NCBI GenBank assembly: GCA_003024785.1 | Contig: PUQB01000034.1 | Coordinates: 406,269-470,268, forward strand | Source: Selaginella tamariscina | Lineage: Eukaryota > Streptophyta > Lycopodiopsida > Selaginellales > Selaginellaceae | Direction of reading: 5' to 3' | Length of the DNA stretch: 64,000 nucleotides | Shown: positions 2,693-64,000 of the stretch, one piece after another | How the letters are laid out: each line of letters opens with the position of its first letter | Position numbering within the stretch: position 1 is the first letter of the stretch | Notes under the pieces: model-generated | Told to the model about the DNA's origin: nothing | Databases searched by the model: none | The model's input: only the letters and a program-made list of their open reading frames with translations | Program-made: the position numbers and the translations under genes

Positions 2693-3661
2693 AGAAATAG
2701 ATATATACAATGTATGGTTTGTTTAAGCTTTTATGACAAGTACAGGCAAGAAAAATTAGTATATTATCGATCATGTGGGCTGCTGCGATTGTTGGTGGGG
2801 AATTTGGAACCTTCGGTGAGTGTGTCCGTTTTGTCTACTTCTACTGAATCGGATTGTGACACCTAGCAAGATCGTCTAAATTCTAAACTAAAGCGAAAGT
2901 AACAGAGTAACACAGGTAACATGTATGATCATTGTATAACATACATTTATTTAACTTAATAATGAGATAAATTAACAAGGCTGTGTTTCACACTTGTAAT
3001 GTTTATTTATGTATAGTATTCCGGAATAATAGTTGACTTGAAATGAGTAGCCAGAGAATATACACTAAGTGGAAGTATATTGAGAATAACTTTTCTCGTG
3101 TGTAAGGCGTGCTCCATTTGTTCTGTTCCGTAGTAATACTAAGTCAAAGGATTACTCTCTAAATAAATATCATTAACATGTCAAAGCTTGGGAATCTTGG
3201 ACTTAGTGATCATATATATCCCACGGATTGCTAGTATTATATCATCGTCTAGAGTCTAATTGTTGCTTGTCGTACTAGCCTTAAACTAATAATTTCCACC
3301 TAGATTACTCTACAAATGCCTCATGCTTTGCTGGGGCATCTCTCTCTTTCTCTAAGTCGCACTCCTATTAACATTAATCTAATGTTTATCACCTGAGACA
3401 GTATTTCAGAGTCTAACTCTTTGGCTTAACACAGTTATCTCTTAGTGCCGAGGGGAACTGCTCCGTTCTAGTCTGGACACGACAGGAGTGAATAGTGGAG
3501 CTTTGTGTAAGAGTGGTTGGAGGCCGTCCATAAACAAGAAAAACGTGCAGTCAAGATAGCAGCTGGGGAGTGCATTTATTCCTGGTCAGTATTTATTGGA
3601 AGCAATGTGAGCTTCGGTTTACTGAATCAGCTGTGGGTAATCGCGTCTACCTGGGATAGAA
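2643..3661. other. Intergenic spacer
   Basis: I see no gene. The first part has a (TA)n tract near 2657-2684, which is transcribed 3' sequence of the Cpn60 relic or spacer. The part before 3662 is less AT-rich and is the likely promoter and leader of the CYP74 gene. Confidence 0.5.
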
Positions 3662-22948: not shown

Positions 22949-24595
22949 TCAAAAGAATTCGTGTTCAATCTGAATGTCCTTGAAGATCACAGGAAAGGTT
23001 TTACCCATTGTTTTGGAAACAATAGTTACCAGGATGTAGTCTTCAGTGATTCCAAGCTGCTCAAGCTTATCGCCAATCCCAATTCTAAATGTCGTCTCCC
23101 GTTTAGGATTCATCAGTCTGTGGCTTGAAACGCTTACAAAACTTCCAGCGTATTCCACCGCGCTAGTTGGTGTCTCTCGGTTGGCATTCGGTAAGTTTAT
23201 GAAAACATCAAACATAGTGGCATTCCCACTGTCAAATTCCACCCCTAGAATCACTAAAACCTCCTCTTCGTCTCCTTGATATGTCATTCGAACCGGCCTC
23301 TTCACACGGCTCGTATATCTGCCCTCCACTTTAGGACCAAATTCATGTAGTTCGTTTTACCACGTTTAGCACCCAGCGTTGAAGGTTTTGCCGTCACCCA
23401 TGGGTTGTTCACTTGTTGATACTTGTACCCCAAATCAGTGGTGTCGAGCGAATCAGCTACTCTAACCTTGACAAGCCTTGCATTCTCGTCGTAAAAGGAA
23501 GAAGTTAGTGTTAAGCCAGTCGGAATGATTGAGATCGGTACGATGGCCGCCTGGGATGGTTTTCCACACTTCCCATATACGGTCCACATTGGCATGATGT
23601 GCATAGAATATCGGATCTCTCCCAGCAGAGTACAGAGCACCCATGTTTCATTGAAACTTTCTAAATCACTGCCTGTCCATGTATGCACGCAGCCGTGAGG
23701 GATATATTGGATAGTTCCAGCCGAACCATTTTCTCCTAAAGGCTTTCCTAAGAAGAGGGAGGGCGTTTTGGAACCAGAGACGATATGCTGGTACATAGCG
23801 TTGTTGTTTTGGTCCCTGATATGTGGCTTAGGCCTATCATCCTCTGGGCAATCGTAGTGCAGGTCAACCAGCCTTGGTGGCATGTGATTACTGTTTCTTA
23901 ATCCATCCATAAGTGCATTTGAGTTTAAGTACATGGCTGGAATGACGTTGGCAAGCGGTGTAGAGATCGATTGGTCGTCCCAGTTCCAGAAGGGTAAAGC
24001 GAAGGCGTCGTCATTAAGCATCTTGGCAAGAATCCGCTCGTGGAAATAGAGAAACCAACGATGCCATGGTAAGAATAGCCAGTTAAAGTGGACTTCCAGA
24101 ATGGTACCATCTTCCTAGTTAAAATCTCAGGTGAGGAGGATATATACACAATACAAGACAGTGTTTTTTACTAACCTGGTGTAATGAACCACTGCAGTAG
24201 GCACAATGCAAGTCGGCTTGATTTGATAGCTTTCTTGGATCGCTATCCGGAAGGGACCTTAGTAGCTCATAAGCGCGATTGTACTTTTCAATGTATGTAG
24301 AGTCGACCAGATGTGCAGCTGGACGGATTCGAATTGGCGGCTTGGATTTGGGAAGAACATATTGAATAGGATCTGTTTCAATACCTGGAGGGCAGCATGC
24401 TATTGGAGTACCATATGCATCTCCAGTTTGGCATTTGATAGTTGAGTGGCTGCTGCTGCTGCTTTCAAACAAGTACAAGGTACCAAAAGCATTACATAAA
24501 TAATTGGAAAAGATCATGAGCTGTGAACTGTACATGTACAATGCTGCCAAAGGAAGTAGGATTATCAACGTCAATGCCAATACAATCTTGGCCAT
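22949..24595 (-). pseudogene. PPO: Polyphenol oxidase (tyrosinase/catechol oxidase) copy 1, frameshifted
   Basis: Two exons, 24176-24595 and 22949-24113. The N terminus MAKIVLALTLIILLPLAALY is a hydrophobic secretory-type signal or anchor, not a plastid transit peptide. CuA is complete: HCAYCSGSLHQ at the end of exon 1 and WLFLPWHRWFLYFHERIL in exon 2, with the thioether Cys. Middle motifs are LPFWNWDD and HTWTGSD. The CuB block ([20 protein letters not shown]) is present only in another frame. One G is lost near 23,647 and one base is gained near 23,493, so the main frame resumes at [11 protein letters not shown] but replaces about 52 residues including the copper ligands. A third slip near 23,340 breaks the join to the C-terminal KFDV-type domain (FDVFINLPNAN). 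PPOs oxidise o-diphenols to quinones. This copy should not bind the second copper as read. A close relative lies at 44.8-46.4 kb. Confidence 0.85.
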
Positions 24596-25496: not shown

Positions 25497-25628
25497 TAAA
25501 TGAAATATATAAAACTATAACAATATAATGCATCAAGAGATAACTATGAGACTTATATACTACTCGAAAATCTCTACTTATACTTTAAGCAGTCATCGTC
25601 TACCTGGATAATAAAGATGTTTCTCCAG
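25497..25628. repeat. Dispersed repeat unit, copy A (ends at MULE insertion)
   Basis: Sequence with landmarks AAAACTATAACAATATAATG, ATCAAGAGATAACTATGAGA, AAAATCTCTACTTA and CTGGATAATAAAGATGTTTC. It recurs at 33,507-33,690 and 47,105-47,290. The MULE copy 1 sits at the end of this unit. Confidence 0.7.
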
Positions 25629-25821
25629 TGAGGCGAAAAGGAGGCTCCGGCTCAGGAGGCTTCATATTATTCTAGTATATTCGCGGATATTCCAGGTTAT
25701 TCTAGCATATTCTAGAAATATTCTCAAGAATATTCTAGAATATATAAGTTTTTTTAATATGCCGACTGGCTTAATATATGCCGACTGGCTTAATAAAGCA
25801 TTATCCTAAACCCTAAACCAT

Positions 25822-28800
25822 TTATCCTTGTAGCACCGGTGGGTCATGAACTCTGCTGCAATTCACCAGCAAACGGTGGACCTCCATCTCACTGAGCGAT
25901 CGCCTTTGTAGAAAATATGTGACGTCCGGGTTCAAGCCAAGCACACGGCTATAGACGAAGTACATGTGTACACATGGGCTCCAACTTTTGCTCTTCTGAA
26001 AGGTAGAACAACTGCATGTAGGATAAGTATTAATAGTCACCTTTGCAGAGTCATTTCCTGCCGACACAACGAAAGCCTCCTTCCGTCCTTAGTGTCACTT
26101 CAACATTTCGCACACGACCTAAAAACGTCTTGGCCTTGCGGAAATTCTTCTCTTGTTCCTTAGACATTTTTGTTGGAGTCCGGACCATACGTCCTTCGAA
26201 AGGTGGAATTGTTGTAGATCCAGCTCCACGTGGTGGCGATGGTGTTTTGTCCTTCTGACCCTCATCTACTTTCCTGCCATCCCCTGTAAACCTTCCAAAC
26301 AAAGCCTGCATCCTGTAGTTCTCTGACCTCCTCACTTGTCAGCTTCGTTTCCTTGAGCACAGGCCAAACCGTTGGTGGTGTTGGAATTCGTGACGAAGAA
26401 TTTTGCCGTTTGGCCGCGTGAAACACCCTGAATCTTTTGGGCAGAACCACATCATCTGTTGTACATACTCCTCATTCCCCAAGGCATCAATGTACATTCG
26501 TTTTCCATAGAATCCTGGTGCTGGCACTCTGCTTGGATAACCGATTGGTTTTCCACACAGAGCAGTTCCTTCCTGATTCATCCCCAAACACTTAACCTTA
26601 CTGGATGCTCCGATTCGTCTGATGGCCCACTCTGTTTGAGCAATCTCTCTCTCCGAAACCTCTTCGAACCTTAACCTCTTTCTCCTGTTGTTTTGGACCA
26701 CCCGCTCTGTGTACTCTACATCATGTCTGTGTGAACGTCGAGCATCAGACTGTTCTGTTCCTGTGACTGTTCTCCTAACAGTTTGCACTCGAACGTTAGT
26801 GGTACTCGTGAACTCCGGGCTGGTCAAGTGTTCCTCGCCTTCCACCAGATTGATAATTGTTGATGGAGATACACTTTTCCCCTCAGAGAGTTTGCGTTGC
26901 ACTCGTTTCAACAGAGTTTCCTTCGAAGGCCCTGACCCTGTATACCTCCCTTCTATTGCCGCTTTCACCTTCGCACTCTGCATAACTGCATCGGTGAGGT
27001 CTAACATTGTCGCCTCCAGCAGTGGTACTCTTTTGGCCAATCTTGCTCTTCTTGCTCTGCGTGAATCACTTCAGCATTGTTTGTAGTTGGAACGCTCGCG
27101 AGTCCTTCTTCTGTCATGTCTCCCAGTTCCGCCATGGAGATGTGGTCCTCATGCCTGATCCACCAAGACAGCCATGTCTTCAAAGCTCGAATGTTTGACG
27201 CTCGTCCTTCCCAAAAAGACTCGAGAATTGCCAGTTGTTCTTTCTTAGATTGTTCATTCAGTGCTGCAGGCCAGGCACGAGCAAGCTTCATGTGTTCTTC
27301 GCGATGTTCTTCTGCGATCCATTTCTTTGTCACCTGACGCACGGATTGCATAAAGTGAAACAGACAGCTTCTTTCCCTCCCTTTCATCTTTGCTCCGTTG
27401 TTGAATACTTGGCGCAAGGCTATCCATATCGCTCCAGCCTCATCCGACATGAAACCAGCAAAGTTGACATTCTCCAAACCCTGCTTCTTACAAACCTCTA
27501 GCATTGTGTTCAAGAACTTCAGCACTGCAACATTATCTTCGCGGCACATATCTGCGTAAGCTATAGTCACCATGGATCTGACACTGCAAGAGAGCGTTAG
27601 ATAACGAAGATTAGAAAGTGTTATGAAGAGTTTTACAACTTACAATGGGTCATAAAGGTGTATTCCAATTGTCCCAGTCTGGTATGCGGTGCGTGTGGTC
27701 CAGAACAACCCATTGATCATGAAGGTCTCCTCCACTTTGACACCTTCTGATGTACTTCAACTCCTGAACCCGGTCCCTCAAACTGTCATTTTGAAGATCA
27801 GAGGCTGCTCCTCAGCACCATGCAGTTCCATCCCTGGAACATGTATGACGTGAATGAAAGGTATTGGCAGCTTTGTCTTCAGCTCCAGAAGACCCTCGTA
27901 ACCCTCTCTAAAGTGTGTCTCCTTCTGTCTTGATTGTGTAATCCAGTCCCGAGTCCTAAAGAAAAGGTCACGTCAGTGTGTAGAGATCTAAAGAAAAATA
28001 CCTTCGATGGTTTGTTAGAGGTTCAAGTTTTGAGAGTAAACCAGTGTACGAGACTTCTCCTTCTTCCTTGAAAAGTTCTTCAAAGATGAGCTCACGCGCG
28101 CTTGAAACTCAATCACTCGTTGATTGGTTCGCGGACTGCTCTTTACCACGTTGCTGACACTAGATCTGGCTCGCTGAACGTTTGAAGCTGACACTGAGGG
28201 GCTGACTGGATGCTGATGAACACCTCTGTGAATGAACAACCTTGTAAAAGAAATGTCGTCTGGCAGAATGTAGTACACATAAGCCGGACAAGTGTGCACC
28301 AGCAATGGCTCCTCTCCACAATGCTTACATTTATGCCTATTACTTTGCCTGTCTCAGTTGTCTTTGCCTTCTCCACAGCACCCTTGAAGTGACATTCATT
28401 TGCTTTCTTCTCAAAAGCCAAGTAGGGGCAGGTAGGATTGATGCATTTGAGATGTCCGACACATGAACTTCGACTGACTCGCGCCGGAACATGCCAGTGT
28501 GTTGTGCTCGTGTGTTCAATGGTAACAGCCATCCTTGCGATTCATCCCAATACTTCTCTGTGCTTTCTTTCTAGGGGGAAGTTCGTAAATGACATTTCCA
28601 TTGTATATCTGCGGTAGTTCAGAGACTCGTTTAACTTCAGACGAACCAATGAGATCCTTCCCTATCCTACATTTGTCTGCTCTTAGAAGACACACCAGCA
28701 TGGATTCCTCACGCTCCTCTGTCCGCAACCTGAACAACGGGCCCTTTGCCGGGCACAATGTGTAAAAGACAAACTGGTTTGATGCATTGCCTTCTGGTAA

Positions 28801-28974
28801 CAACTCCACATCTTCTCCAGAACTCGCAGAAACTGACATCAATTGAACCACATGTATACTGAACCAACAAGGAATGTTGAAAGCAATGTGAAGATCATGT
28901 TCAAACACAAAAGCATTTCCATCTTCATCGACTGGGAAATCTTTGTCAATGCCTTCATAGGTAACTCTGGCCAT
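25822..28974 (-). pseudogene. MULE transposase, copy 1 (broken)
   Basis: Same gene as at 55,385-58,548, collinear throughout. Readable blocks are the N terminus from ATG 28,974 (MARVTYEGIDKDFPVDEDG), the Cys/His block (28.1-28.5 kb), the exon with VVLDHTHRI (27.65-27.95 kb) damaged by indels, the DDE block GFMSDEAGAIWIALRQVF, the block with TTNNAEV, and the C-terminal SWIM finger ending at 25,822. Frames change repeatedly, for example near 26,335, 26,400, 27,040, 27,700, 28,080 and 28,540. The T-run at about 27,210 is intact here (five bases), whereas copy 2 has four and is frameshifted, so each copy preserves a frame the other lost. Confidence 0.85.
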
Positions 28975-29499
28975 GACAACGCAAGGAGAAAGCTCGGTGG
29001 TTTAGGAAAGCAAAGCAAAAGATTAAACACACTTTCTTCGCCAAAAAAAAATTACAATCGTTATAATAAACGTGAATACACGTTTGTATATAATTAATTC
29101 TATGCTGCCCAGTCACAGTGTTCTTAATGATGTCCTCTCTAGTATCACCGATTTAATTTAATTTCTACCTTTTATGATTTGAAATATCTTCACATTTACC
29201 AATTATTCACATATTTTAAAATAAACCCTAAATATTAATGTCACATTTATTCCGTAGGGTTCACTGTTTTCATTGCGGCTAGGGTTTTTTGGTAGATAGG
29301 GTTTACTGTTTCCATTGCGGCTAGGGTTCTTTCAATCTCAGATCTGTTTCCACTGCGGCAGATCCAGAGGGTTTTTCAATCTCAGATCTCAGAGTTACGG
29401 TTTCCACTGCGGCGCCATCCATTTCGACTCGATTCGTGCAGCGCCCAAGTATAACAATGGAGATTTCTGTGCCGATTTAGATTGTCGGCACCATCCTGC

Positions 29500-30096
29500 T
29501 CAGTCGGCGCCACAAGGGTATGTGCAATTTCTGTATTTATGATTTGCGGCTCAAAGTAATTTCTTTTTCAGAGATAAAGGGTCTTCCCATTTGTGCCGAC
29601 TGAGAGCGACGGCACCATCCTGGTTCAGTCGGCAGCCACAAGGTATTTTCGATTTGTTTATTTTTTTTTTTTGCGGCTCAAGTATCATATCACAATGTTT
29701 TTTTTTCAGAGTTAATGTGTCTTCCCATTTGTGCCGACTGAGAGTGACGGCACCATCCTGGTTCAGTCGGCAACCACAAGGTATTTTGAATTTGTTTATA
29801 TTTTGCTTTGCAGCTCAAAGTATTTTTTTTTCAGAGTTAATGGGTCTTCCCATTTGTGCCGTCTGAGAGGGACGCACCATCCTATCTCAGTCGGCACCAT
29901 TATCTCTTCAGTGCCGTCTGAGAGGGTCAGCACCAACTATCTCAGTCGGCAGGATTTGTTCTTCTACATCTCTCTGCGACTGAGAGGGTCGGCACCATCT
30001 AGCTTGAGTCAGCCACAAGGTTAGTCATCTTTGTTTGTTTTTTTATTTTGTCTCCTAATCAATTGACTTGTGTGTTTGCTTTCCAGAGTTTACAAA
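29500..30096 (+). repeat. Tandem exon/intron leader array, copy 1 (three units)
   Basis: Three full units carry CATTTGTGCCG, inverted CGACTGAGAG…CAGTCGGCA, CACAAG then GTATTT (donor), a T-rich tract and CAG (acceptor). They start near 29,571, 29,709 and 29,833. A degenerate tail has extra GCCGTCTGAGAG/CTCAGTCGGCA pairs to 30,020. The final GTTAGT…TTTCCAG intron leads to the ATG at 30,097. Copy 2 has six units. Confidence 0.75.
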
Positions 30097-33000
30097 ATGG
30101 TGAGAGCTTCAAAACGTCTACTAGAGACTGCGCCTGATGAAGAGCCACTAGAAGAGAAGAGGATATCGAAAGACAAGCGAGGCAAGAGAGGAGAACCATC
30201 TAATGTAGCAAAGGAGGATCCTCCAGTGACTCAGTCTGGAAGTAATACCAATTGAGCAGGAGTAGCCTCCATCAACCATCACAGATTTCCCGGAGAGCTC
30301 GTCGCAGTTGCCTCCTTCATCCGCTGAGGTTGCAGTCATGAACGAGCAAGTGCAGATGACAGAGGCAGTTGAAGCTAGTGAGGACGACTTGGAGGAGGCA
30401 GTCAGCAAAAAGAGAGGCCGCGGGAAAGCTGATCCAAAAGGCAAGAAGGCGAAGAGCGATAAGGAGCCGAAGGAGTTTATACAGCATACCGGCTAGCCTG
30501 CATTTGGAGAGCTCAGCGAACCTGCTCGACAAATTACTGTCAAGGACTTGGTGATCCTCCTGATGTGCCCATCTGTAGAATGCATTCGAACGAGGTGGTT
30601 CGACGAGTGAACCCAGGGGACTTGGACAGGCTAGTGTCATCTTGAAGAAGGCTGGTTATCTACGCAACACGGCCTTGTTCATTCTGTCCATCGGATCGAC
30701 TCACTGCTGAGGAGCTATCGGAGCTGTCGAAGGACACAGTTCAGTACGAGCAGCACCGGTCTTTCGAGCAAGCTCTTACTCAGCCGGAGTACAAACAGTG
30801 GGCTTCAAGGCTCTCAAACCGGAAGTTCAGCTGCTGGGACGGGAAACCATAGGCTACAGGCTTTGCAGAAGCTTACCGGGAGGATGCAGAGGACAACCAG
30901 CGATGGGCTATTCGCATTCGATCGAGTTTCATCTCCAGGAGAACCTCGACAATCTTCAACTGGTTTCGATGTTCCAATCGATTAACATGTGAGTATTTTC
31001 TTTTCTTTTTATTAAGAGTTAGACTTACAGTTTCTTTGAACAGATCAACAGCAACATCTGTGGAAACAACACTACCACATATTCTCCTCGCTGTAAAGGC
31101 CGTCTGCACTAGTACCGAAGGAACTCAGAAAATCCTCGAGTCACTCACGGAGGTTGATCGTCTTGAGGTGCGGAGTGGAAGGAGAGTTCAACAGGAAAGA
31201 CGGCTTGGCATCCTTTTCCGAACCTGATCTGCGCAAAGAATCCTTTTCAAGGTAACCTAATTTGATTATAGGAAAGAAGTTTTTAACTTATTTATGTGCA
31301 GAACGAGATCGACGATGATCTCGACAGAGCAGTCACCAGTGCTAAGGGCAATCCACAGGTTGGTGAACCTGAAGCAGCTAGTGTACAAGAAGCATGACAA
31401 GCGTATGCACAAGTTCCTCTCCATCATAGACCCAGACTTGGGGGAGGAGTGGTTCCAGAAGGTGACGAACATCTCTCATAAGCAGTGTCGCTGGATGGGC
31501 ATTGAGAAGCTGTATGCGATGTCAAAGGCGAAGATTCCAAACATGCTGCGACTCCGATACTTGAACAAGCTCACCCGTCTCGAATCCAAGGCAGAACAAC
31601 AGACACTTGGGCTACCAGGCATGCAGGACAAAGAGTGGATCAAGTGGTTCACCTTGGACTTATATTGGAAGGCTGTGCGCAAGGAAGCCATTCAGATCCT
31701 TAAGGGGTTGCGAGAGGATGGTGAAGAAGTTGGAACGGATGTCGACTTCATGAGCTGGTTTGACGAGATGCGAACTCGGAGCAAGTGCCTGGTCTTTCAG
31801 CCCTTCCATGACTGCATACGGTTCACTTATTCGATGGAGCCGAATGAGTTTCTGGAGCGTGAGGAGTCTGCGGTCGGATGATATGGAGGTAAGCTTTCAT
31901 TCCAGCATTGCTACTGTCTGACTTTGTGTTACAGGTTCATACTGGCAAAGAAAATGGCACCGTCTCAGACGATGAAGCTGTGGACAGATCATACAAGCGA
32001 GCCTCACATGTGGTCGAAGAGCAGAGGAGCTCTAACACCGTTCGAACGGGAGCATGTTCCATTCTGGCTCGACTGTCCGTCGCAACAGCCACCAGCTTGG
32101 GAGAGCTCACTATTCGACGTGCACGGCAATGATCTACCAGCGATTGTTTGGGAGCCGGAACGAAGTAGAGGCTATCAAGAAGAGCAAGATGAAGAAGACG
32201 GTGCGGAAGACAACTACACCTGCAAAGGGATCGGGAGCGGGACCAAGCTCTTCTACAGCACCTGCCGGCAATCGACTTTACAATCAATGAGGTGCAGCCA
32301 CTTGTAGCTAGTTTGGACATCAAGGACGACCTGATGACCTTCATCCCGACCCTGGCTGCATCCCGTGGATCCTACGACCTGGCTGTGTGCGATATGGAGG
32401 AGATGAGCAGGTCTTTCTTCGAGCCGGGTGCTTCCCAGACAAGGTGTACACCAAGCTCCGACAACAGGTTGACAGACTACATACTGAGTCACAAACGGTG
32501 TTCCAGGAAGTGGTAGGTGAATACGGCTTCAACCTCATCATCCTCGACTTGCCCAATGAGCTTGTATATGGAGGTGCTAGCATCAACAAGGACATTGTGC
32601 AGCTAGATCCGGTGAAGTTTGAGGAGGCCTTGCAGTTCAGTGGAATGCACTTGGCAGCGAGTGGTTTCATGGTCGTCTTCGCGAGTTCTCCTTCTGTTTC
32701 GGCGGTGATTCAGGCGGCTGCAGTAATCAACTTGGAGGTTGCAGGGACTTACAGCGTCTACCGTGCACGAGGCTGGGGATACCGTGACAAAATTAAGGTA
32801 AGCTAGCTATTCAAGTTCAAGTTTAACTTGGTCTATGTGGCAGGATAACTTGTTAGTTCTCTTGGTGCTGCAAAGCTCTGAGAAGAAGTCGAAGAGGCCA
32901 AACCCTCTGGCGTTGACGAACACGATCCTCGTCGACACCGCCGACCGTTTTCAGGAGGCTTGGTAAGGAAGTACTTTGCTTTGTTTATCCTAATGGAAGT

Positions 33001-33304
33001 TTGTGCAGGATGATGATTCAACCGAAGAGTGTTCGACTCATGCAGCTTTTGATCGAGCGTCTCAGTAGACCTGGCGACCTAGTCTGGGATATTGGTTCCG
33101 GAACCGGGTCATCGTTGTTAGCTGCGTCGAGCTCGGAAGGAATATTATAGGAACCGAGAAGAGTTTCGAACTCTCTAGGTTGGCAACAAACAAGCTCGCA
33201 GAGAACATTAGACCAGAGGAATTACCTACTCAAACACCTCCACGTCCAAGCTAGCTGGTGGTTCGAGAACTGCAGCTTTACTTAAGATGAAGAAGAAACT
33301 TTAG
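30097..33304 (+). pseudogene. ParB/Srx-DNA methyltransferase fusion gene, copy 1 (broken)
   Basis: Collinear with the gene at 60,088-63,313. Recognisable blocks: MVRASKRLLETAPDEEP at the start, a Lys/Arg-rich segment, the ParB-like block (RVNPGDLDRL; the DGNHRLQAL equivalent carries an indel), VYKKHDKRMHKFLSIIDPDL, LIILDLPNEL, and the C-terminal SAM motif DLVWDIGSGTGSS. Breaks include an in-frame TGA and frame change near 30,250, and slips near 30,470, 30,690, 30,840, 31,165, 31,360, 31,870, 32,155, 32,270, 32,440 and 33,125. The G-run near 32,049 keeps three G (copy 2 has two), so copy 1 retains the ancestral frame at that point. Confidence 0.82.
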
Positions 33305-33506
33305 CTAATGTATATTGAGTAATAAATTAAGCTAATATAAAAAAAAAAAGATAGAAATACAACAGTTTTATAGAATTCTTTTTTGCCGACTGAGGCCAAT
33401 ACTGCCGACCAGAAAGAATATTCTAAAATATTCTAGAATATTCTAGAATATTCGAGCCCAGGCCTCCTGGGCCCCAAGCCTCCAAAATGGCGGCACTCTT
33501 CTCCAG

Positions 33507-33690
33507 CTTATATTCCATTAAGTAGTATAGAGCGTTGTATGTATATATGTATAAAACTATAACAATATAATGCATCAAGAGATAACTATGAGACTTATAC
33601 TACTACTTGAAAATCTCTACTTAATGGATCGTCTGCCTGGATAATAAAGATGTTTCACCCCCTATTCAGCTGGCTTATATTCTATTATAA
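33507..33690. repeat. Dispersed repeat unit, copy B
   Basis: Right of MULE copy 1. Begins CTTATATTCCATTAAGTAG and repeats the same landmarks as 25,497-25,628 and 47,105-47,290, ending with GGATAATAAAGATGTTTC and CTTATATTC again. The pattern suggests the units were tandem before the MULE insertion. Confidence 0.7.
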
Positions 33691-41030: not shown

Positions 41031-41488
41031 CCCAACATGTAAACGACTCTGAAAATGATCCACCGATGACTCCAGTTTCACAAACAACTTCCACAAGTGC
41101 ACCTTTGACTGCTGATCACTCAGATGATGATGGAGATGGTGTCACTGCGACGAGAAGGCAAGCGAAGAAGGGAAAGTCTAGTTTGGTTGAAGCGGTTAAT
41201 GAAGGTACAAATGTACGGTTGAGATGAGGAGCCGCCAATTTGAGAGGACAGTAGAGTTGAGGAGGGAAAAGAACGCTTCTATTGAGAAGTTCGCATTGGC
41301 TATGACACGAATTGCTGATCACATTTGTGGACAGAGAAACAAAGACTAGATTAGCATGGGTGCATGTAGGTTGCATATATTTATCATTTGCAAGCTTTTA
41401 TTTGGATTATGTTAATGCATTTTTGTTTGTTATTTATAATATCGATTATATTATTTTTTCAGGACGTTTAATAAAATTAGCCTCGACC

Positions 41489-42712
41489 ATGGCTGGAGAT
41501 TTTTTTGTTCAATTCATCATGAACAACTCGGATTCTGATTCGGATGCTGAAGATGAAGAACGTGACAATTCAGATGATGATGATGCAGTAGTTCAGTACA
41601 TGCGGAGGTCAACACAAGCTACAATTAATAGGTCTTCTCCTTCACAGTGGGTTCGACTACGGAGTGAGGCATGGTGGGACACTTTTATGATGTCACACTA
41701 CGATGATGAGAGGTGGATAAAACTTCTTCGAATGCCACGGAGAACCTTTGTTATGATTTGTAATGTATTAGAGGATGACATCTCAAGGCGGGATACCCAC
41801 TACAGAGAAGTTGTACGAGTGGATATTAGAGTTGGAGCTACACTTTGGAAGATGGTGAGAAACAGTGACTACATGGACATTGGTGAGAGGTTTGCTATTG
41901 GAACTTCGACTGTTATGGTTGTGTTTGTAGAGACGACAGCAGCTATTTGTCGACGTTTCTGGTATAAGGTGGCATTTCCATCGACGGAAAATGAGGTTCG
42001 TGAGATGGCACATGAGTTCCAAGATGTGACACACACTCATTTACCAAATGTTGTGGGGGCCATAGATTGCACACATGTGGAGATACTTCAGCCTTTTACA
42101 AATGACCGAACGGACTACTTTGACAGGAAGCAACGGAATAGCATCATTGTGCAAGGGGTTGTTGATGCACGTAAGAGGTTTATAAATGTGAATGCTGGAT
42201 GGCTAGGTGAGCAAGTTACATTCATTTTGATTATGTTTGTGTAATGTTTTGGTATTTGCAGGTAACGTGCATAATATGCGAGTTTGGAAGAATTGCTCAC
42301 TTCATCAAAAGATCATTGATGGGGTTTATCTTCATGGACCTTTGGAGGCTGCTCATGTTGATTTGTGAAGCCTTATATTGTGGGTGATAAAGGATACCAA
42401 TTACAACCATTTTTAATGGTCCCATACACAGGCATGTAAAGTTAATATATTTATAACATATTTAACTTGAGTTTTTATAGGTGTCATCTTAATCTTGGTC
42501 AGGAGACCTTCAATAAGGAGCTTACTAAAGCACGATTGGTGGTTGAGCAAGCATTTGGCCTTTTAAAGCAAAAATTCCATTGCCTTGATTATAAGTTAAG
42601 AGTCCACCTTCCACACATTCCGAATACTGTGAGTGCTTGTGTTATTCTCCATAACATCTTCATTGATGAGGGCGAGGCCAATTATGAGGCAACTTTACGA
42701 GTAAAGGAGTGA
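41489..42712 (+). pseudogene. PIF/Harbinger DDE transposase (one frameshift, one catalytic change)
   Basis: Three exons, 41489-42206, 42262-42435 and 42481-42712, give 374 residues if one base is restored near 42,366. After an acidic N terminus (SDSDSDAEDEERD) come the helix-turn-helix region and the DDE core: VVGAIDCTHVEI (first Asp), GWLGNVHNMRVWK, IVGDKGYQLQPF (later Asp) and ARLVVEQAFGLLKQKFHCLD (Glu), then ILHNIFID. In active relatives the second block reads GSVHDSRV; here the Asp is Asn. Both the frameshift and this change predict an inactive protein. Confidence 0.85.
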
Positions 42713-54859: not shown

Positions 54860-55178
54860 TTCTATGGAGTTACAGATTTACAAGTTGAATAAAGCCTTGT
54901 ACAAACCTGGTATGAGAAGATGGACACTTATCTTCTTTCTCTTTACTTTCACAAGAGTGCTACAGACAACAACGTTTATCTTAACTCTCTACTGATTCAA
55001 CTCAGCTCCAGCAGTTGAAGCAGCAAATGTCTTCTCGGTTTGAGATGATAGATTAAAATTATACAGGGACATCAAGATTCAAGAACAGTTATCTTATCAC
55101 ATAAACAATATGCGATTTATCTTCTACAGTAGGAAAATTTAAGTCCAGCAAATACATCAATGCAAGCTAATTTTCATT
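54860..55178 (+). mobile_element. Copia element, left part (reverse transcriptase), split by MULE copy 2
   Basis: WYEKMDTYLLSLYFHKSATD (about 54,911-54,970; family form AWYxKIDxYL…FxxSxxDxxLY) identifies copia RT. Further downstream are KQQMSSRFEMIDLKLYRDI and the segment PANTSMQANFH (family form PxxTPME). The reading continues across the MULE at 63,509 with FHLSREMSPQTEVD, so the two halves are one element. Frame breaks are present. Confidence 0.72.
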
Positions 55179-55384
55179 GGGTCTCGGCGAAAAGGAGGCT
55201 CCGGCTCAGGAGGCTTCATATTATTCTAGTATATTCGCGGATATTCTAGGGTTATTCTAGCATATTCTCAAGAATATTCTAGAATATATAAGTTTTTTTA
55301 ATATGCCGACTGGTTTAATATACGCCGACTGGCTTAATATATGCCCACTGGCTTAATAAGACATTATCCTAAACCCTAAACCAT
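55179..55384. repeat. Left terminal/subterminal region of MULE copy 2
   Basis: A GC-rich tip, then ATTATTCTAG, TATATTCGCGGATATTCTAG, CAAGAATATTCTAGAATATA (HSE-like), then ATGCCGACTGG, ACGCCGACTGG and ATGCCCACTGG in direct repeat near 55,303-55,352. The transposase stop follows at 55,385. Confidence 0.8.
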
Positions 55385-58300
55385 TTATCCTTGTAGCACC
55401 GGTGGGTCATGAACTCTGTTGCAATTCACCAGCAAACGGTGGACCTCCATGTCACTGAGCGATCGCCTTTGTAGAAAATATGTGACTTCCGGGTTCAAGC
55501 CAAGCACACGGCTATAGACGAAGTACATGTGTACACATGGGCTCCAACTTTTGCTCTTCTGAAATGTAGAACAACTGCATGAAGGATAAGTATTAATAGT
55601 CACCTTTGCAGAGTCATTTCCTGCCGACACAACGAAAGCCTCCTTCCGTCCTCTAGCTGTCACTTCAACATTTCGCACACAACCTAAAAACGTCTTGGCC
55701 TTGCGGAAATTCTTCTCTTGTTCCTTAGACATTTTTGTTGGAGTCCGAACCATACGTCCTTCGAAAGGTGGAATTGTTGTAGATCCAGCTCCACGTGGTG
55801 GCGATGGTGTTTTGTCCTTCTGACCCTCATCTACTCTTCCTGCCATCCCCTGTAAACCTTCCAGAACAAAGCCTGCATCCTGTAGTTCTCTGACCTCCTC
55901 ACTTGTCAGCTTCGTTTCCTTGAGCACAGGCCAAACCGTTGGTGGTGTTGGAATACGTGACCGAAGAATTTTGCCGTTTGGCCGCGTGAAACACCCTGAA
56001 TCTTTTGGGCAGAACCACATCATCTGTTGTACATACTCCTCATTCCCCAAGGCATCAATGTACATTCGTTTTCCATAGAATCCTGGTGCTGGCACTCTGC
56101 TTGGATAACCGATTGGTTTTCCACACAGAGCAGTTCCTTCCTGATTCATCCCCAAACACTTAACCTTACTGGATGCTCCGATTCGTCTGATGGCCCACTC
56201 TGTTTGAGCAATCTCTCTCTCCGAAACCTCTTCGAACCTTAACCTCTTTCTCCTGTTGTTTTGGACCACCCGCTCTGTGTACTCTACATCATGTCTGTGT
56301 GAACGTCGAGCATCAGACTGTTCTGTTCCTGTGACTGTTCTCCTAACAGTTTGCACTCGAACGTTAGTGGTACACGTGAACTCCGGGCTGGTCAAGTGTT
56401 CCTCGCCTTCCACCAGATTAATAATTGTTGATGGAGATACACTTTTCCCCTCAGAGAGTTTGCGTTGCACTCGTTTCAACAGAGTTTCCTTCGAAGGCCC
56501 TGACCCTGTATACCTCCCTTCTATTGCCGCTTTCACCTTCGCACTCTGCATAACTGCATCGGTGAGGTCTAACATTGTCGCCTCCAGCAGTGGTACTCTT
56601 TTGGCCAATCTTGCTCTTCTTGCTCTCGCGTGAATCACTTCAGCATTGTTTGTAGTTGGAACGCTCGCGAGTCCTTCTTCTGTCATGTCTCCCAGTTCCG
56701 CCATGGAGATGTGGTCCTCATGCCTGATCCACCAAGACAGCCATGTCTTCAAAGCTCGAATGTTTGACGCTCGTCCTTCCCAAAAGACTCGAGAATTGCC
56801 AGTTGTTCTTTCTTAGATTGTTCATTCAGTGCTGCAGGCCAGGCACGAGCAAGCTTCATGTGTTCTTCGCGATGTTCTTCTGCGATCCATTTCTTTGTCA
56901 CCTGACGCACAGATTGCATAAAGTGAAACAGACAGCTTCTTTCCCTCCCTTTCATCTTTGCTCCGTTGTTGAATACTTGGCGCAAGGCTATCCATATCGC
57001 TCCAGCCTCATCCGACATGAAACCAGCAAAGTTGACATTCTCCAAACCCTGCTTCTTACAAACCTCTAGCATTGTGTTCAAGAACTTCAGCACTGCAACA
57101 TTATCTTCGCGGCACATATCTGCGTAAGCTATAGTCACCATGGATCTGACACTGCAAGAGAGCGTTAGATAACGAAGATTAGAAAGTGTTATGAAGAGTT
57201 TTACAACTTACAATGGGTCATAAAGGTGTATTCCAATTGTCGCCCAGTCTGGTATGCGGTGCGTGTGGTCCAGAACAACCCATTGATCATGAAGGTCTCC
57301 TCCACTTTGACACCTTCTGATGTACTCAACTCCTGAACCCGGTCCCTCAACTGTCATTTTGAAGATCAGAGGCTGCTCCTCAGCACCATGCAGTTCCATC
57401 CCTGGAACATGTATGACGTGAATGAAAGGTATTGGCAGCTTTGTCTTCAGCTCCAGAAGACCCTCGTAACCCTCTCTAAAGTGTGTCTCCTTCTGTCTTG
57501 ATTGTGTAATCCAGTCCCGAGTCCTAAAGAAAAGGTCACGTCAGTGTGTAGAGATCTAAAAAAAATACCTTCGATGGTTTGTTAGAGGTTCAAGTTTTGA
57601 GAGTAAACCAGTGTACGAGACTTCTCCTTCTTCCTTGAAAAGTTCTTCAAAGATGAGCTCACGCGCGGCTTGAAACTCAATCACTCGTTGATTGGTTCGC
57701 GGACTGCTCTTTACCACGTTGCTGACACTAGATCTGGCTCGCTGAACGTTTGAAGCTGACACTGAGGGGCTGACTGGATGCTGATGAACACCTCTGTGAA
57801 TGAACAACCTTGTAAAAGAAATGTCGTCTGGCAGAATGTAGTACACATAAGCCGGACAAGTGTGCACCAGCAATGGCTCCTCTCCACAATGCTTACATTT
57901 TATGCCTATTACTTTGCCTGTCTCAGTTGTCTTTGCCTTCTCCACAGCACCCTTGAAGTGACATTCATTTGCTTTCTTCTCAAAAGCCAAGTAGGGGCAA
58001 GTAGGATTGATGCATTGGAGATGTCCGACACATGAACTTCGACTGACTCGCGCCGGAACATGCCAGTGTGTTGTGCTCGGGTGTGTCCAATGGTAGCAGC
58101 CATCCTTGCGATTCATCCCCGAGTACTTCTCTGTGCTTTCTGTCTTAGGGGGAAGTTCGAAAATGACATTTCCATTGTATATCTGCGGTAGTTCAGAGAC
58201 TCGTTTAACTTCAGACGAACCAATGAGATCCTTCCCTATCCTACATTTGTCTGCTCTTAGAAGACACACCAGCATGGATTCCTCACGCTCCTCTGTCCGC

Positions 58301-58548
58301 AACCTGAACAACGGGCCCTTTGCCGGGCACAATGTGTAAAAGACAAACTGGTTTGATGCATTGCCTTCTGGTAACAACTCCACATCTTCTCCAGAACTCG
58401 CAGAAACTGACATCAATTGAACCACATGTATACTGAACCAACAAGGAATGTTGAAAGCAATGTGAAGATCATGTTCAAACACAAAAGCATTTCCATCTTC
58501 ATCGACTGGGAAATCTTTGTCAATGCCTTCATAGGTAACTCTGGCCAT
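55385..58548 (-). CDS. MULE transposase (WRKY/GCM-like N terminus, DDE core, SWIM finger), one frameshift
   Basis: Three exons: 57569-58548, 57212-57523 and 55385-57151. With one base restored in a T-run at about 56,782-56,786 (four here, five in copy 1) they give 1,019 residues. The N-terminal third starts MARVTYEGIDKDFPVDEDG. Residues about 180-290 hold Cys/His pairs (CVGHLQCINPTCPYL, CKHCGEEPLL, then HRGVHQHP), like the zinc-chelating WRKY/GCM1-type domains described in MULE transposases. The DDE core is seen as VVLDHTHRI (near 411), GFMSDEAGAI with CLFHFMQSV (near 476) and TTNNAEVIHA with the likely Glu (near 601). A SWIM finger CSCSTFQKSKSWSPCVHMYF lies near 960. The role is cut-and-paste transposition acting on the element ends. 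It is transcribed divergently from the methyltransferase gene. Confidence 0.87.
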
Positions 58549-59033
58549 GACAACACAAGGAGAAAGCTCGGTGGTTTAGGAAAGCAAAGCAAAAGATTAA
58601 ACACACTTTCTCTTACCAAAAAAAAATTACAATCGTTAACAATAAACGTGAATACACGTTTGTATATAATTAATTCTATGCTGCCCAGTTCACAGTGTTC
58701 TTAATGATGTCCTCTCTAGTATCACCGATTTAATTTAATTTCTACCTTTTATGATTTGAAATATCTTCACATTTACCAATTATTCACATATTTTAAAATA
58801 AACCCTAAATATTAATGTCACATTTATTCCGTAGGGTTCACTGTTTTCATTGCGGCTAGGGTTTTTTGGTAGATAGGGTTTACTGTTTCCATTGCGGCTA
58901 GGGTTCTTTCAATCTCAGATCTGTTTCCACTGCGGTAGATCCAGAGGGTTTCTTTAATCTCAGATCTCAGAGTTACGGTTTCCACTGCGGCGCCATCCAT
59001 TTCGACTCGATTCGTGCAGCGCCCAAGTATAAC
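58549..59033. promoter_or_regulatory. Divergent promoter zone of MULE copy 2
   Basis: Lies between the transposase ATG (58,548) and the methyltransferase leader array. AT-rich on the transposase side, then repeated blocks CATTGCGGCTAGGGTT (58,850 and 58,892), TTTCCACTGCGG (58,924 and 58,978) and AATCTCAGATCT (58,911 and 58,956), with several AGGGTTT/AAACCCT boxes. Transcription starts cannot be placed from sequence alone. Confidence 0.55.
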
Positions 59034-60087
59034 AATGGAGATTTCTGTGCCGATTTAGATTCTCGGCACCATCCTGCTCAGCCGGCGGCCACAAGGTATG
59101 TGTAATTTCTGTATTTTATGATTTGCTGCTCAAAGTATTTCTTTTTCCAGAGATATAGGGTCTTCTTATTTGTGCCGACTGAGAGCAACGGCACCATCCT
59201 GGTTCAGTCGGCAAACACAAGGTATCGTCGATTTATTTATTTTTTTCCTTGCGGCTCAAGTATACGTGTCACAATTTTTTTTTCAGAGTTAATGGGTCTT
59301 TCCATTTGTGCCGACTGAGAGTGACGGCACCATCCTGGTTCAGTCGGCAAAAACAAGGTATTTTCGATTTGTTTTTTTTTGCTTTCTGGCTCAAGTATTC
59401 GTATCACAAGGTTTTTATTTTCAGAGTTAATGGGTCTTCCCATTTGTGCCGACTGAGAGTGACGGCACCATCCTAGTTCAGTCGGCAGCCACAAGGTATG
59501 TTCGATATATTTATTTTTTGCTTTCTGGATCATGTATTCGTATCACATTGTTTTTTTTCAGAGTTAATGTGTCTTCTCATTTGTGCCGACTGAGAGTGAC
59601 GGCACCATCCTTCTTCAGTCGGCAGCCACAAGGTATTTTGAATTTGTTTATATTTTGCTCTGCGGCTCAAGTATCCGTATAACAATGTTTTTTTTCAGAG
59701 TTATAGTGTCTTCCCATTTGTGCCGACTGAGAGTGACGGCACCATCCTTCTTCAGTCGGCAGCCACAAGGTATTTTGAATTAGTTTTTTTTTTCTTTGCG
59801 TCTCAAGTATTTCTTTTAAAACAGTTAATGGGTCTTCCCATTTGTGCCGTCTGAGAGGGACGGCACCATCCTATCTCAGTCGGCACCATTATCTCTTCTG
59901 TGCCGTCTGACAGAGTCGGCACAAACTATCTCAGTCGGCAGGTTTTTTCTTCTACTCTCTCTGCCGACTGAGAGGGTCGGCAGCATCTAGCTTGAGTCGG
60001 CAGCCACAAGGTTAGTCATCTTTGTTTGTTTTTTTATTTTGACTCCTCATCAATTGACTTGTGTGTTTACTTTCCAGAGTTCCCAAA
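59034..60087 (+). repeat. Tandem exon/intron leader array of the methyltransferase gene (six units)
   Basis: Units repeat every 130-140 bases (starting near 59,152, 59,286, 59,424, 59,560, 59,698 and 59,823). Each is a predicted exon of about 71 bases opening after a T-rich tract and CAG, and closing at CACAAG with GTATxT as donor, then an intron of about 65 bases. The exon contains TGCCGACTGA and, 24 bases on, its perfect inverse TCAGTCGGCA. Most units have ATGGGTCTTCCCATTTGTGC, an upstream ORF that stops at the GACTGA. After a last degenerate unit, GTTAGT…TTTCCAG leads to the ATG at 60,088. Confidence 0.8.
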
Positions 60088-63000
60088 ATGGTGAGAGCTT
60101 CAAAACGTCTACTAGAGACTGCGCCTGATGAAGAGCCACGGGAAGAGAAGAGGATATCGAAGCAGAAGCGAGGCAAGAGAGGAGAACCATCTAATGTACC
60201 AAAGGAGGATCCTCCAGTGACTCAGTCTGGAGTAGTAGCAGTTGAGCAAGAACAGCCTCCACCAACAATCACAGATTTCCCGGAGAGCTCGTCGCAGTTG
60301 CCTCCTTCATCCGCTGAGGTTGCAGTCCTGAACGAGCAAGTGCAGATGACAGAGGCAGCTGAAGCTAGCGAGGACGACTTGGAGGAGGCAGTCAGCAAAA
60401 AGAGAGGCCGCGGGAAAGCTGATTCAAAAGGCAAGAAGGCGAAGAGCGATAAGGAGCCGAAGGAGTTATACAGCATACCGGCGAGCCTGCATTTGGAGAG
60501 CTCAGCAAACCTGCTCGACAAAATTACTATCAAGGGACTTGGTGATCCTCCTGATGTGCCCATCTGCAGAATACATTCCAACGAGGTGGTTCGACGAGTG
60601 AACCCAGGGGACTTGGACAGGCTGGTGTCATCGTTGAAGAAGGCTGGTTATCTACGCAACACGGCCTTGTTCATTCTGTCCATCGGAGATCGACTCACTG
60701 CTGAGGAGCTATCGGAGCTGTCGAAGGACACGATTCAGTACGAGCAGCACCGGTCTTTCGAGCAAGCTCTTACTCAGCCGGAGTACAAACAGTGGGCTTC
60801 AAGGCTCTCAAACAGGAAGTTTAGCTGCTGGGACGGGAACCATAGGCTACAGGCTTTGCAGAAGCTGTACCGAGAGGATGCAGAGGACAACCAGCGATGG
60901 GCTATTCGCGTTCGATCGAGTTTCATCTCCACGGAGAACCTCGACATTCTTCAACTGGTTTCGATGTTCCAATCGATTAACATGTGAGTATTTTCTTTTC
61001 TTTTTGTTAAGAGTTTAGACTTACAGTTTCGTTGAACAGATCTTCAGCAACATCTGTGGAAACAACGCTACCACATATTCTCCTCGCTGTAAAGGCGGTC
61101 TGCACTAGTACAGAAGGAACTCAGAAAATCCTCGAGTCACTCACGGAGGTTGATCGTCTTGAGGTGCGGAAGTGGAAGGAGAGTTCATCAGGAAAGACGG
61201 CTTGGCATCCTCTTCCGAACCTGATCTGCGCAAAGATACTTTTCAAGGTAACCTCCGATTTAATTTATAGGAAAGAAATTTTTAACTTGTTCTATGTGCA
61301 GAACGAGATCGACGATGATCTCGACAGAGCAGTCACCAGTGCTAAGGGCAATCCACAGGTTGAGGTGAACCTGAAGCAGCTAGTATACAAGAAGCATGAC
61401 AAGCGTATGCACAAGTTCCTCTCCATCATAGACCCAGACTTGGGGGAGGAGTGGTTCCAGAAGGTGACAAACATCTCTCATAAGCAGTGTCGCTGGATGG
61501 GCATTGAGAAGCTGTATGCGATGTCAAGGGCGAAGATTCCAAACATGCTGCGACTCCGATACCTCAACAAGCTCACCCGTCTCGAATCCAAGGCAGAACA
61601 ACAGACACTTGGGCTACCGGGCATGCAGGACAAAGAGTGGATCAAGTGGTTCACCTTGGACTTATATTGGAAGGCTGTGCGCGAGGAAGCCATTCAGATC
61701 CTTAAGGGGTTGCGAGAGGATGGTGAAGAAGTTGGAACGGATGTCGACTTCATGAGCTGGTTTGACGAGATGAGAATTCGGAGCAAGTGCCTGGTCTTTC
61801 AGCCCTTCCATGACTGCATACGGTTCACTTATTCGATGGAGCCGAATGAGTTTCTGGAGCGTGAGGAATCTGCGCGTCGGATGATATGGAGGTAAGCTTT
61901 CAATCCAGCATTGCTACTGTCTGACTTTGTGTTGCAGGTTCATACTGGCGAAGCAAATGACACCGTCCCATACGATGAAGCTGTGGACAGATCATACAAG
62001 CGAGCCTCACATGTGGTCGAAGAGCAGAGGAGCTCTAACACCGTTCGAACGGAGCATGTTCCATTCTGGCTCGACTGTCCGTCGCAACAGCCACCAGCTT
62101 GGGAGAGCACACTATTCGACATGCACGCCAATGATCTACCAGCGATTCTTTGGGAGCCAGAAGAAGTAGAGGCTATCAAGAAGAGCAAGATGAAGAAGAC
62201 GGTGCGGAAGACAACTACACCTGCAAAGGGATCGGGAGCGGGACCAAGCTCTTCTACAGCACCTCCGCCAGCATTCGACTTTACAATCAATGAGGTACAG
62301 CCACTTGTAGCTAGTTTGGACATCAAGGACGACCTGATGACCTTCATCCCGACCCTGGCTGCATCCCGTGGATCCTACGACCTAGCTGTGTGCGACATGG
62401 AGGAGATGAGCAGGTCTTTCTTCGAGCCAGGTGCTTCCCAGACAGAGGTGTACACCAAGCTCCGAGAACAGGTTGACAGACTACATACGGTTGAGTCACA
62501 AACGTTGTTCCAGGAAGTGGTAGGTGAATACGGCTTCAACCTCATCATCCTCGACTTGCCCAATGAGCTTGTATATGGAGGTGCTAGCATCAACAAGGAC
62601 ATTGTGCAGCTAGATCCGGTGAAGTTTGAGGAGGCCTTGCAGTTCAGTGGAATGCACTTGGCAGCGAGTGGTTTCATGGTCGTCTTCGCGAGTTCTCCTT
62701 CTGTTTCGGCGGTGATTCAGGCGGCTGCAGTAATCAACTTGGAGGTTGCAGGGACTTACAGCGTCTACCGTGCACGAGGCTGGGGATACCGTGACAAAAT
62801 TAAGGTAAGCTAGCTATTCAAGTTCAAGTTTAACTTGGTCTATGTGGCAGGATAACTTGTTAGTTCTCTTGGTGCTGCAAAGCTCTGAGAAGAAGTCGAA
62901 GAGGCCAAACCCTCTGGCGTTGACGAACACGATCCTCGTCGACACTGCCGACCGTTATCAGGAGGCTTGGTAAGGAAGTGCTTTGCTATGTTTATCCTAA

Positions 63001-63313
63001 TGGAAGATTGTGCAGGATTATGATTCAACCGAAGAGTGTTCGACTCATGCAGCTTTTGATCGAGCGTCTCAGTAGACCTGGCGACCTAGTCTGGGATATT
63101 GGTTCCGGAACCGGGTCATCATTGTTAGCTGCCGTCGAGCTCGGAAGGAATATTATAGGAACCGAGAAGAGTTTCGAACTCTCTAGGTTGGCAACAAACA
63201 AGCTTGCAGAGAACATTAGACCAGAAGAGTTACCTACTCAAACACCTCCACGTCCAAGCGTAACTGGTGGTTCGAGAACTGCAGCTTTACTTAAGATGAA
63301 GAAGAAACTTTAG
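60088..63313 (+). CDS. ParB/Srx-like domain fused to beta-class DNA methyltransferase (transposon-encoded), one frameshift
   Basis: Six coding exons: 60088-60983, 61040-61247, 61302-61891, 61938-62804, 62851-62969 and 63016-63313. With one G restored at 62,051 (GG here, GGG in copy 1) they give 992 residues. Residues 1-140 are Lys/Glu/Pro-rich with likely nuclear-localisation runs (KKRGRGK, GKKAKSDKEPK). Residues about 155-285 resemble ParB/Srx: PICRIHSNEVVRRVNPGDLD, LKKAGYLRNTALFI and SCWDGNHRLQALQKL. A long helical middle follows. The C terminus has the beta-class order: motif IV-like FNLIILDLPNEL (Asp near 771), ASGFMVVFASS, then SVRLMQLLIERLSRPGDLVW and the SAM motif DIGSGTGSSLLAAVELGRN near 920, with IGTEKSFELSRLA. 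Bacterial and phage N6-A/N4-C methylases share this plan. The catalytic tetrapeptide is DLPN, not DPPY. Its role may be to mark element DNA. Confidence 0.8.
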
Positions 63314-63508
63314 CTAATGTATATTGAGTAATAAATTAAGCTAATAAAAAAAAAATTAAAAAGAAATACAACAGTTTTAATAGAATTCTTTTTTGCCGAC
63401 TGAGGCCAATACTGCCGACCAGAAAGAATATTCCAAAATATTCTAGAATATTCTTGAATATTCGAGCCCAGGCCTCCTGGGCCCCAAGCCTCCAAAATGG
63501 CGACACTC
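63314..63508. repeat. Right terminal/subterminal region of MULE copy 2
   Basis: After the stop come ATAAATTAAGC, then GCCGACTGAGGCCAATACTG with a second CGACC, then AGAATATTCCAAAATATTCT, AGAATATTCTTGAATATTCG and the GC-rich tip ending CGACACTC. It mirrors the left end in order and content. Confidence 0.8.
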
Positions 63509-64000
63509 ATTTTCATTTATCTAGAGAGATGTCCCCACAAACAGAAGTTGATCGTGAATAGATGTCCCTTATAGTCAGGTTGTCGGGAGTCTAATTTATC
63601 TTATGGACCAGATATAGCCTACGTAATTGGTGCAGTTGCAAAGTTTATGCAAGATCCTGGTTGGGAGCATTGGCTAGCAATTAAGAGAAATTTACGCTAT
63701 CTCAAACGAACAACATATCTTGTACTTGCTTATAAGCGTACAACAAATTGGGAGCATTGTGATGCTGATTTTGCTGGTGATCCTGACTCATGACACTCAA
63801 CTTCTGGTTATTGTTTTACACTTGGGCAATGCAATTTATCACATGGAGCAGCAAATGCCAATTGTTATTGCTCTCTAGTGTGGAAGTTGAGTATATTGCT
63901 CTTACTATTGCAGCTCAAGAAGCCATTTGGCTTAGACAACACTTGGATAGGCTTCTTCTTATCTCCTCACGGCGCAACACCTCCATATTGTGACAATCGA
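63509..64000 (+). mobile_element. Copia element, right part (RT end and RNase H), runs off the window
   Basis: Resumes the copia frame after the MULE: FHLSREMSPQTEVD, then IAYVIGAVAKFMQDPGWEHW, LRYLKRTTYLVLAYKRT, CDADFAGDPDS, STSGYCFTLGQ and VEVEYIALTIAAQEAIWLRQ. These are the standard copia RNase H residues (DADWAGD, STSGYxF, EAEYxAL). A TGA after DPDS and a frame slip near 63,830 show decay. Confidence 0.85.

Follow-up and report, generated by a model that had tools for sequence, protein, structure and literature searches.

Transposons of the VANDAL group are of the Mutator type, and the CACTA element En/Spm encodes a regulator, TnpA, that binds repeated subterminal motifs. In the VANDAL elements of Arabidopsis, the targets of VANC are copies of a short motif, YAGTATTAY, tandemly repeated in non-coding DNA with a varying number of units (PMC5735166, available part). 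Published work already describes ParB-methylase genes in transposons of algae: the available part of PMC12477816 describes Sola1-1_Ec32, a 21.5-kb member of the Sola superfamily from the brown alga Ectocarpus that encodes, on the opposite strand, a 1104-residue protein with ParB-like and N4-cytosine/N6-adenine methyltransferase parts, and it cites similar proteins from transposons of green and red algae. Here we analyze 64,000 nucleotides of the Selaginella tamariscina genome (contig PUQB01000034.1, positions 406,269 to 470,268; hereafter the window), in which positions 55170-63517 hold a transposon that encodes a transposase and, divergently, a protein with a probable ParB-like part and a methyltransferase-fold part (the ParB-methyltransferase protein). 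We favor the reading, with a probability of about one half, that this is an autonomous Mutator-like element whose ParB-methyltransferase-like protein acts as a TGCCGACT-binding regulator of the element, with S-adenosylmethionine (SAM) as its ligand.

Like Sola1-1_Ec32 as described in the accessible text, the Selaginella element carries its ParB-like/methyltransferase gene on the strand opposite the transposase, with 992 residues here versus 1104. It differs in its size of about 8.3 kb, its 9-bp duplications, its land-plant host, its motif arrays and its DLPN motif, a comparison that does not take in the Ectocarpus motif IV. With VANDAL and VANC, to judge from the part of that report available, it shares an accessory gene together with a repeated non-coding motif of variable unit number, although the motif is TGCCGACT here and YAGTATTAY there, and the likeness is one of motif layout rather than of protein comparison. 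The initial annotation of this DNA had drawn the VANDAL parallel, and the TGCCGACT arrays in non-coding DNA do recall the VANC targets. TnpA would have a similar role in En/Spm, but the protein is unrelated and its element is of the CACTA type.

The element at 55170-63517 (copy A) is flanked on both sides by an identical 9-bp sequence, ATTTTCATT, which lies at 55170-55178 on the left and at 63509-63517 on the right and encloses 55179-63508. The left terminal region (55179-55215) starts with GGGTCTCGGCGAAAAGGAGGC, and the same end adjoins 9-bp duplications in other copies; the right terminal region (63470-63508) finishes with GCCTCCAAAATGGCGACACTC. The ends are inverted, as had been claimed, but the match between them is weak over the 40 bp compared. 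Terminal inverted repeats are missing from some Mutator-like elements (MULEs). The collinear second copy that had been reported is indeed present in the window at 25621-33507 (copy B), with the gene order of copy A, many frame breaks and a duplication, TTCTCCAGT/TTCTCCAGC, that matches at 8/9 positions. Of the 11 copies readable at both ends, seven have a perfect 9-bp duplication (copy A, C890, C335, C1293, C893, C483 and C1137, the boundary in C890 and C1137 being fixed by the count of Gs at the left end). Two have an 8/9 match (copy B and C113:185k), and two, C512 and C1358, have none. Four more copies of the end set yielded only one end, and no left end was found for L043. A reading of the flanks places copy A within degenerate copia-like sequence. 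We conclude that 55170-63517 is one mobile unit, about 8.3 kb long. The initial description of a unit bounded by 9 bp, with a transposase gene and a divergent spliced gene, is borne out by the exact ATTTTCATT pair and by the genes located on the minus and plus strands.

The genome containing the window comprises 300.7 Mb in 1391 contigs. Searching it with the ParB-methyltransferase protein gave 111 matches that merge to 46 copies, and the transposase gave 63 matches that merge to 45. Because each list is confined to its top-scoring candidates (46 of 3249 and 45 of 3359), both counts are lower bounds, and a partner missing from a list is uninformative. Among the matches listed, a divergent transposase lies 1.5-2.1 kb from 12 ParB-methyltransferase copies, and a thirteenth pairing, on C113, has its neighbor in the other arrangement. 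Both genes align in all six of the 8.7-kb copies that were fetched, so the homologues are neither confined to places outside transposons nor chance neighbors of one. The proposal of a transposon family rather than an accident thus holds, with at least 46 copies, most of the readable ones having duplications of their own. The two one-base homopolymer breaks in copy A could be read errors, but a chance neighborhood or an assembly artefact is refuted for the unit as such by dozens of copies at separate sites, 9/11 with their own duplications, and its probability is negligible. Copies A and B differ by less than 1% from 55670 to about 57900, which covers most of the transposase gene, and elsewhere mostly by 1-9%, with some intervals at 0; this uneven divergence suggests exchange between copies, as mosaics or by gene conversion. 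In L043, a central segment (3282-4811) is inverted, and with it the promoter array and some of the 5' end of the transposase gene.

The transposase gene lies on the minus strand. Exon 1 (57569-58548) is open in other copies, exon 2 (57212-57523) carries the first catalytic D in VVLDHTH, and exon 3 (55385-57151) carries the second D (FMSDEAGA), CLFH, the E (TTNNAEVIH) and a SWIM-like CSCS..CVH. Copy A has a one-base frame break near 56781, in exon 3; the 1019-codon frame is open in five of the six best-scoring loci elsewhere in the genome. MULE transposases show the motif order D, D, CxxH, E, followed by a SWIM finger. The order found here, LDHTH, MSDEAGA, CLFH, NNAE and CSC..CVH, is the MULE order at the level of motifs, and the 9-bp duplication falls within the range of 8-11 bp given for MULEs in the available part of PMC6446971. 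On motifs and duplication, the element would be Mutator-like in anatomy, an assignment that holds in part, and we do not count it among the proven MULEs. The genome also holds a separate classical MULE family (L001-L008), with 16 equal top-score matches (E 8.3e-25) and a 637-residue frame that is open in 5/8 fetched loci.

The divergent gene has six exons on the plus strand: exon 1 (60088-60983), with the ParB-like part from about 60550 and the motif DGNHRL at 60832-60849; exon 2 (61040-61247); exon 3 (61302-61891); exon 4 (61938-62804), with motif IV, DLPN, at 62553-62564; exon 5 (62851-62969); and exon 6 (63016-63315), with the SAM motif DIGSGTG at 63095-63115 and the methyltransferase profile match. 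The gene had been described as a spliced frame of 992 codons. Its splicing and its divergent plus-strand position stand, but the frame is not open in copy A, where one base breaks it at 62049/62050 in exon 4; it is open in L041. Between copies A and B, the ratio of nonsynonymous to synonymous change (pN/pS) is 0.27 for this gene (39 synonymous and 37 nonsynonymous changes, p 2.5e-8; 976 codons, 15 skipped), with 0.16 for the ParB part and 0.27 for the C-terminal half, by a simple count that takes no account of the mosaic look of the copies. The transposase gives 0.32 from only 19 changes (1005 codons, 13 skipped). Judged by these ratios, the ParB-methyltransferase gene is kept by purifying selection. 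Searches of protein databases, one of which scored only the best 8000 candidates, gave no relatives outside this genome, and scans of viral contigs gave none either. A tblastn search against phages returned 76 records, and in the 20 rows listed, at most 29% of the query is matched, at the methylase end.

Over the SAM-motif part, the Pfam profile N6_N4_Mtase matches above its cut-off (E 1.1e-8) and is the only profile to do so. Sequence matches in the PDB over this part are MboIIA, CcrM and DpnA. Alignment of a two-family profile with six phage methyltransferases by hhalign gave a probability of 98.1% (E 9e-14) and is confident over 67 columns around motif I; under a laxer setting, it reaches 203 columns and pairs DLPN with the phage D[IV]PY. 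The CcrM segment DPPYNL..GG aligned on DLPNEL..GG with a score below chance. Like the phage beta-class methyltransferases (L077-L082), CcrM, MboIIA and DpnA, the Selaginella protein has motif IV before motif I and a C-terminal SAM motif. The six phage proteins, at 211-269 residues, have no room for a ParB part, and they carry DIPY, DVPY or DPPY versus DLPN here. These profile matches make a solid case that the C-terminal part has the beta-class DNA-methyltransferase fold, with motif IV ahead of a C-terminal motif I, as had been proposed from the letters alone; a match of this part to class I methyltransferases was found by sequence profiles. What we claim is descent and fold from N6_N4_Mtase, not membership among the enzymes.

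The catalytic motif IV of beta-class methyltransferases has the consensus [DNS]xP[YFW], and its aromatic residue stacks on the target base. The Selaginella motif departs from this consensus, with Asn in place of the aromatic residue. In tblastn matches from 56 sequences searched, which are not independent because some loci overlap one copy, DLPN was found in 50/50 and in both families of the element, DIGSGTG in 48/51 and DGNHRL in 35/40. Because the aromatic residue is replaced in both families under selection, the replacement would be a change rather than decay. From the kept SAM motif, we predict that the protein still binds SAM. Methylation is doubtful, because in every match DLPN replaces DPPY or DIPY, with the SAM motif retained in most; such a replacement argues against ordinary amino-methylation. 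The initial annotation had suggested that the methylase may mark the element's own DNA, against silencing or to control transposition; applied to the motif described below, an active enzyme would methylate an A or C within or close to TGCCGACT, against silencing or to time transposition. The same proposal is made for the Ectocarpus relative in the available part of PMC12477816, and it agrees with the retained DIGSGTG, with purifying selection on the methyltransferase half and with the hydrophobic residue at position 2 of DLPN, as in the phage DIPY and DVPY. The position that should stack on the target is nevertheless Asn in 50/50 matches from two families, and we consider self-marking unlikely; in its original form it is not supported. 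The part of the claim that survives is an acquired methyltransferase fold carried as cargo by a multi-copy transposon family and kept by purifying selection.

The genome has at least 150 matches to N6_N4_Mtase (739 candidates), and they lead to a second family. Ten loci among the 150 listed matches were inspected: L070, L071 and L073 belong, over the matched segment, to family 2, with about 72% identity to the last exon, and the others resemble family 1, to which copies A and B belong. Most of the listed matches appear to have the 106-residue open frame of family 2. In L075 (C639), a family 2 copy, the transposase lies on the minus strand and is 57% identical over 975 residues, and the ParB-methyltransferase protein, on the plus strand and pieced together by hand, is 58% identical over 876 columns, with alignment gaps that coincide with the intron places of copy A. 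We placed the ends of L075 at 359 and 8510, where GTTGGAGAA and GTCGGAGAA match at 8/9 positions. There are, by these alignments, two families, about 57% identical and with a common layout. Methylase exons of the two families lie about 1.0-1.3 kb apart in L073 and L074, in nested or adjacent elements.

Both families carry arrays of one short motif. In copy A, the divergent-promoter array (59046-60012) is built of a unit of about 137 bp with inverted TGCCGACTGA and TCAGTCGGCA sites, and a single TGCCGACTGA site on the plus strand near the right end (63394-63403) is present in family 2 too. Counted on both strands, TGCCGACT occurs 17 times in copy A, nine times in copy B and once elsewhere in the window; TGCCGACTGA occurs 14, seven and zero times, respectively. 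L075 has 21 copies of TGCCGACT, and the Markov expectation is 0.26 for copy A and 0.15 for L075. Seven copies each are found in the rearranged L043 and the partial L076. TGCCGACT is the top 8-mer that the two families have in common between their genes (15 and 19 copies), and the best blastn rows between these intergenic regions are short and nearly all lie around TGCCGACT sites. In family 1 the sites fall within the 137-bp unit, which is present in different numbers in copies A and B. In family 2 they fall within a 40-bp unit that holds the palindrome AGTCGGCA-TGCCGACT, with eight perfect copies in L075. The 16-bp palindrome AGTCGGCATGCCGACT occurs 1142 times genome-wide, versus 0 for its reversed control, and in none of the family 1 copies. 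On six of the eight contigs with listed palindrome arrays, the array lies 3.15-3.17 kb upstream of a listed methyltransferase exon; the arrays on C1 and C13 have no such exon among the 150 listed matches.

Most TGCCGACT sites lie between the genes, and each family also has single ones close to either end. These single sites also fit repeats that the transposase binds, subterminally and internally, with the ParB-methyltransferase gene as a passive passenger. Against this stand the position of most sites away from the ends, the purifying selection on the gene and the fact that two diverged families both keep it, and we consider a passenger improbable. The reading that we favor is an autonomous cut-and-paste element encoding a DDE/SWIM-type transposase and a divergent protein in which a long middle region separates a ParB-like part from a methyltransferase fold. 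This protein, or less likely the transposase, would bind the TGCCGACT arrays, and SAM would be its ligand, in a structural or regulatory role. Once bound, the regulator would keep the divergent promoter and the ends open, or organize the ends for transposition, in a role like that of VANC for VANDAL or TnpA for En/Spm; DNA methylation is possible but is not the default reading. ParB proteins target parS-type palindromes. Because of this, and because the gene is conserved together with the array, the ParB-methyltransferase protein is the first candidate binder. A more specific and tentative version, which we regard as unlikely in full, is that a prokaryotic ParB-methyltransferase became a SAM-sensing, non-methylating DNA-binding regulator. 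It would load on the parS-like palindrome AGTCGGCA-TGCCGACT, with more than 1000 perfect copies in the genome, or on half-sites, and build an anti-silencing nucleoprotein complex.

Several results weigh against the favored reading. The element had been said to encode a Mutator-like SWIM/DDE transposase, and motif order and duplication agree with this, but the MULE transposase domain (PF10551) gave no Pfam or NCBIfam match to the protein at E 1 or E 10, and the SWIM profile stayed below its cut-off (E 0.04). Alignment by hhalign with the top-scoring MULE family of the genome (L001-L008), a single family with almost no diversity, scored 18.7, below the best of 60 shuffles (20.9). Of the ParB-methyltransferase sequences aligned end to end, a set in which L009 and L042 represent one copy and which leaves aside 14 opposite-strand loci, only L041 is open over 992 residues; the other ten of 11, including copy B, are broken. 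The last 878 codons are open in nine of 12 further hand-picked loci. The ParB domain was recognized by no profile library, and a PDB sequence search with this part returned chance-level rows only. An AlphaFold2 model of the ParB part from the single sequence had a mean predicted local distance difference test (pLDDT) of 32.5. Aligned with eight ParB_N domains by hhalign, the intact region scored 17.8 (probability 1.7%), close to the best of 60 shuffles (17.4). These eight come from ten loci, L101 and L102 being left out because the frame picked was not the ParB frame, and L098 lies below the family cut-off. After removal by hand of a 43-residue insert, the score rose to 25.4 (probability 34%, E 4e-4; best of 100 shuffles 22.0), to which we give low weight since the cut was chosen after the result with the intact region. 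The ParB/Srx domain first proposed thus has a weak alignment signal, better without the insert, and moderate support at best from profiles; a ParB-like identity of the N-terminal part is likely.

The subterminal repeats and the core of the arrays also allow the sites to be read as host stress elements. A GAATATTCTAGAATATT-type repeat lies at 55226-55290 on the left, with GAAnnTTCnnGAA at 55272, followed by three 19-bp repeats with TGCCGACTGG-like sites (55301-55357), and a GAATATTC repeat lies at 63426-63463 on the right, with four units of GAAnnTTC at 63446. Family 1 has GAAnnTTCnnGAA repeats at each end and family 2 has them at its left end (L075, 401-455), and the three-unit GAAnnTTCnnGAA pattern has no match in the window outside copies A and B. 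We take these GAAnnTTC repeats to be heat-shock-element-like. GCCGAC, also the core of the plant dehydration-responsive element/C-repeat (DRE/CRT), occurs 22 times in copy A and 26 times in L075, so the arrays could serve host factors, a further point against the favored reading. The TGCCGACT arrays and GAATATTC repeats would then switch the transposon on under stress, much as ONSEN is reportedly switched on through heat-shock elements, and the ParB-methyltransferase protein would act elsewhere. The conserved unit is, however, longer than the core (TGCCGACT, mostly with G next), it is abutted into a palindrome in family 2, and the single sites near both ends fit a binder encoded by the element. 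Host stress elements are thus a somewhat unlikely account of the arrays.

Elsewhere in the window, a fragment of a polyphenol oxidase gene (matches to Tyrosinase and PPO1_DWL) lies on the minus strand at 23302-24114, the only host-type gene checked, and points to a land-plant host. An open reading frame on the plus strand at 41306-42244 encodes a putative PIF/Harbinger transposase, by reading of its translation. Rfam and tRNA scans of the window gave 0 matches. In the literature, judged mostly by titles and the starts of abstracts, with no search aimed at DLPN or the motif and with most subscription papers outside the coverage, no land plant and no Mutator-like element was found to have such a gene, and among the papers listed PMC12477816 was the only one with ParB-methylase genes in transposons. 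The words ParB and methyltransferase are absent from the main text, as available, of a paper on Mutator diversity (PMC6446971).

Few element-coded factors that act against host silencing are known, and the present element is another candidate, in a land plant. Some of its copies are intact, its DNA motif is defined, and its methylase fold has a fixed change in the catalytic motif. Together with the algal examples as described in the accessible literature, it suggests that the ParB-methylase cargo of algal transposons may extend to land plants in another type of element.

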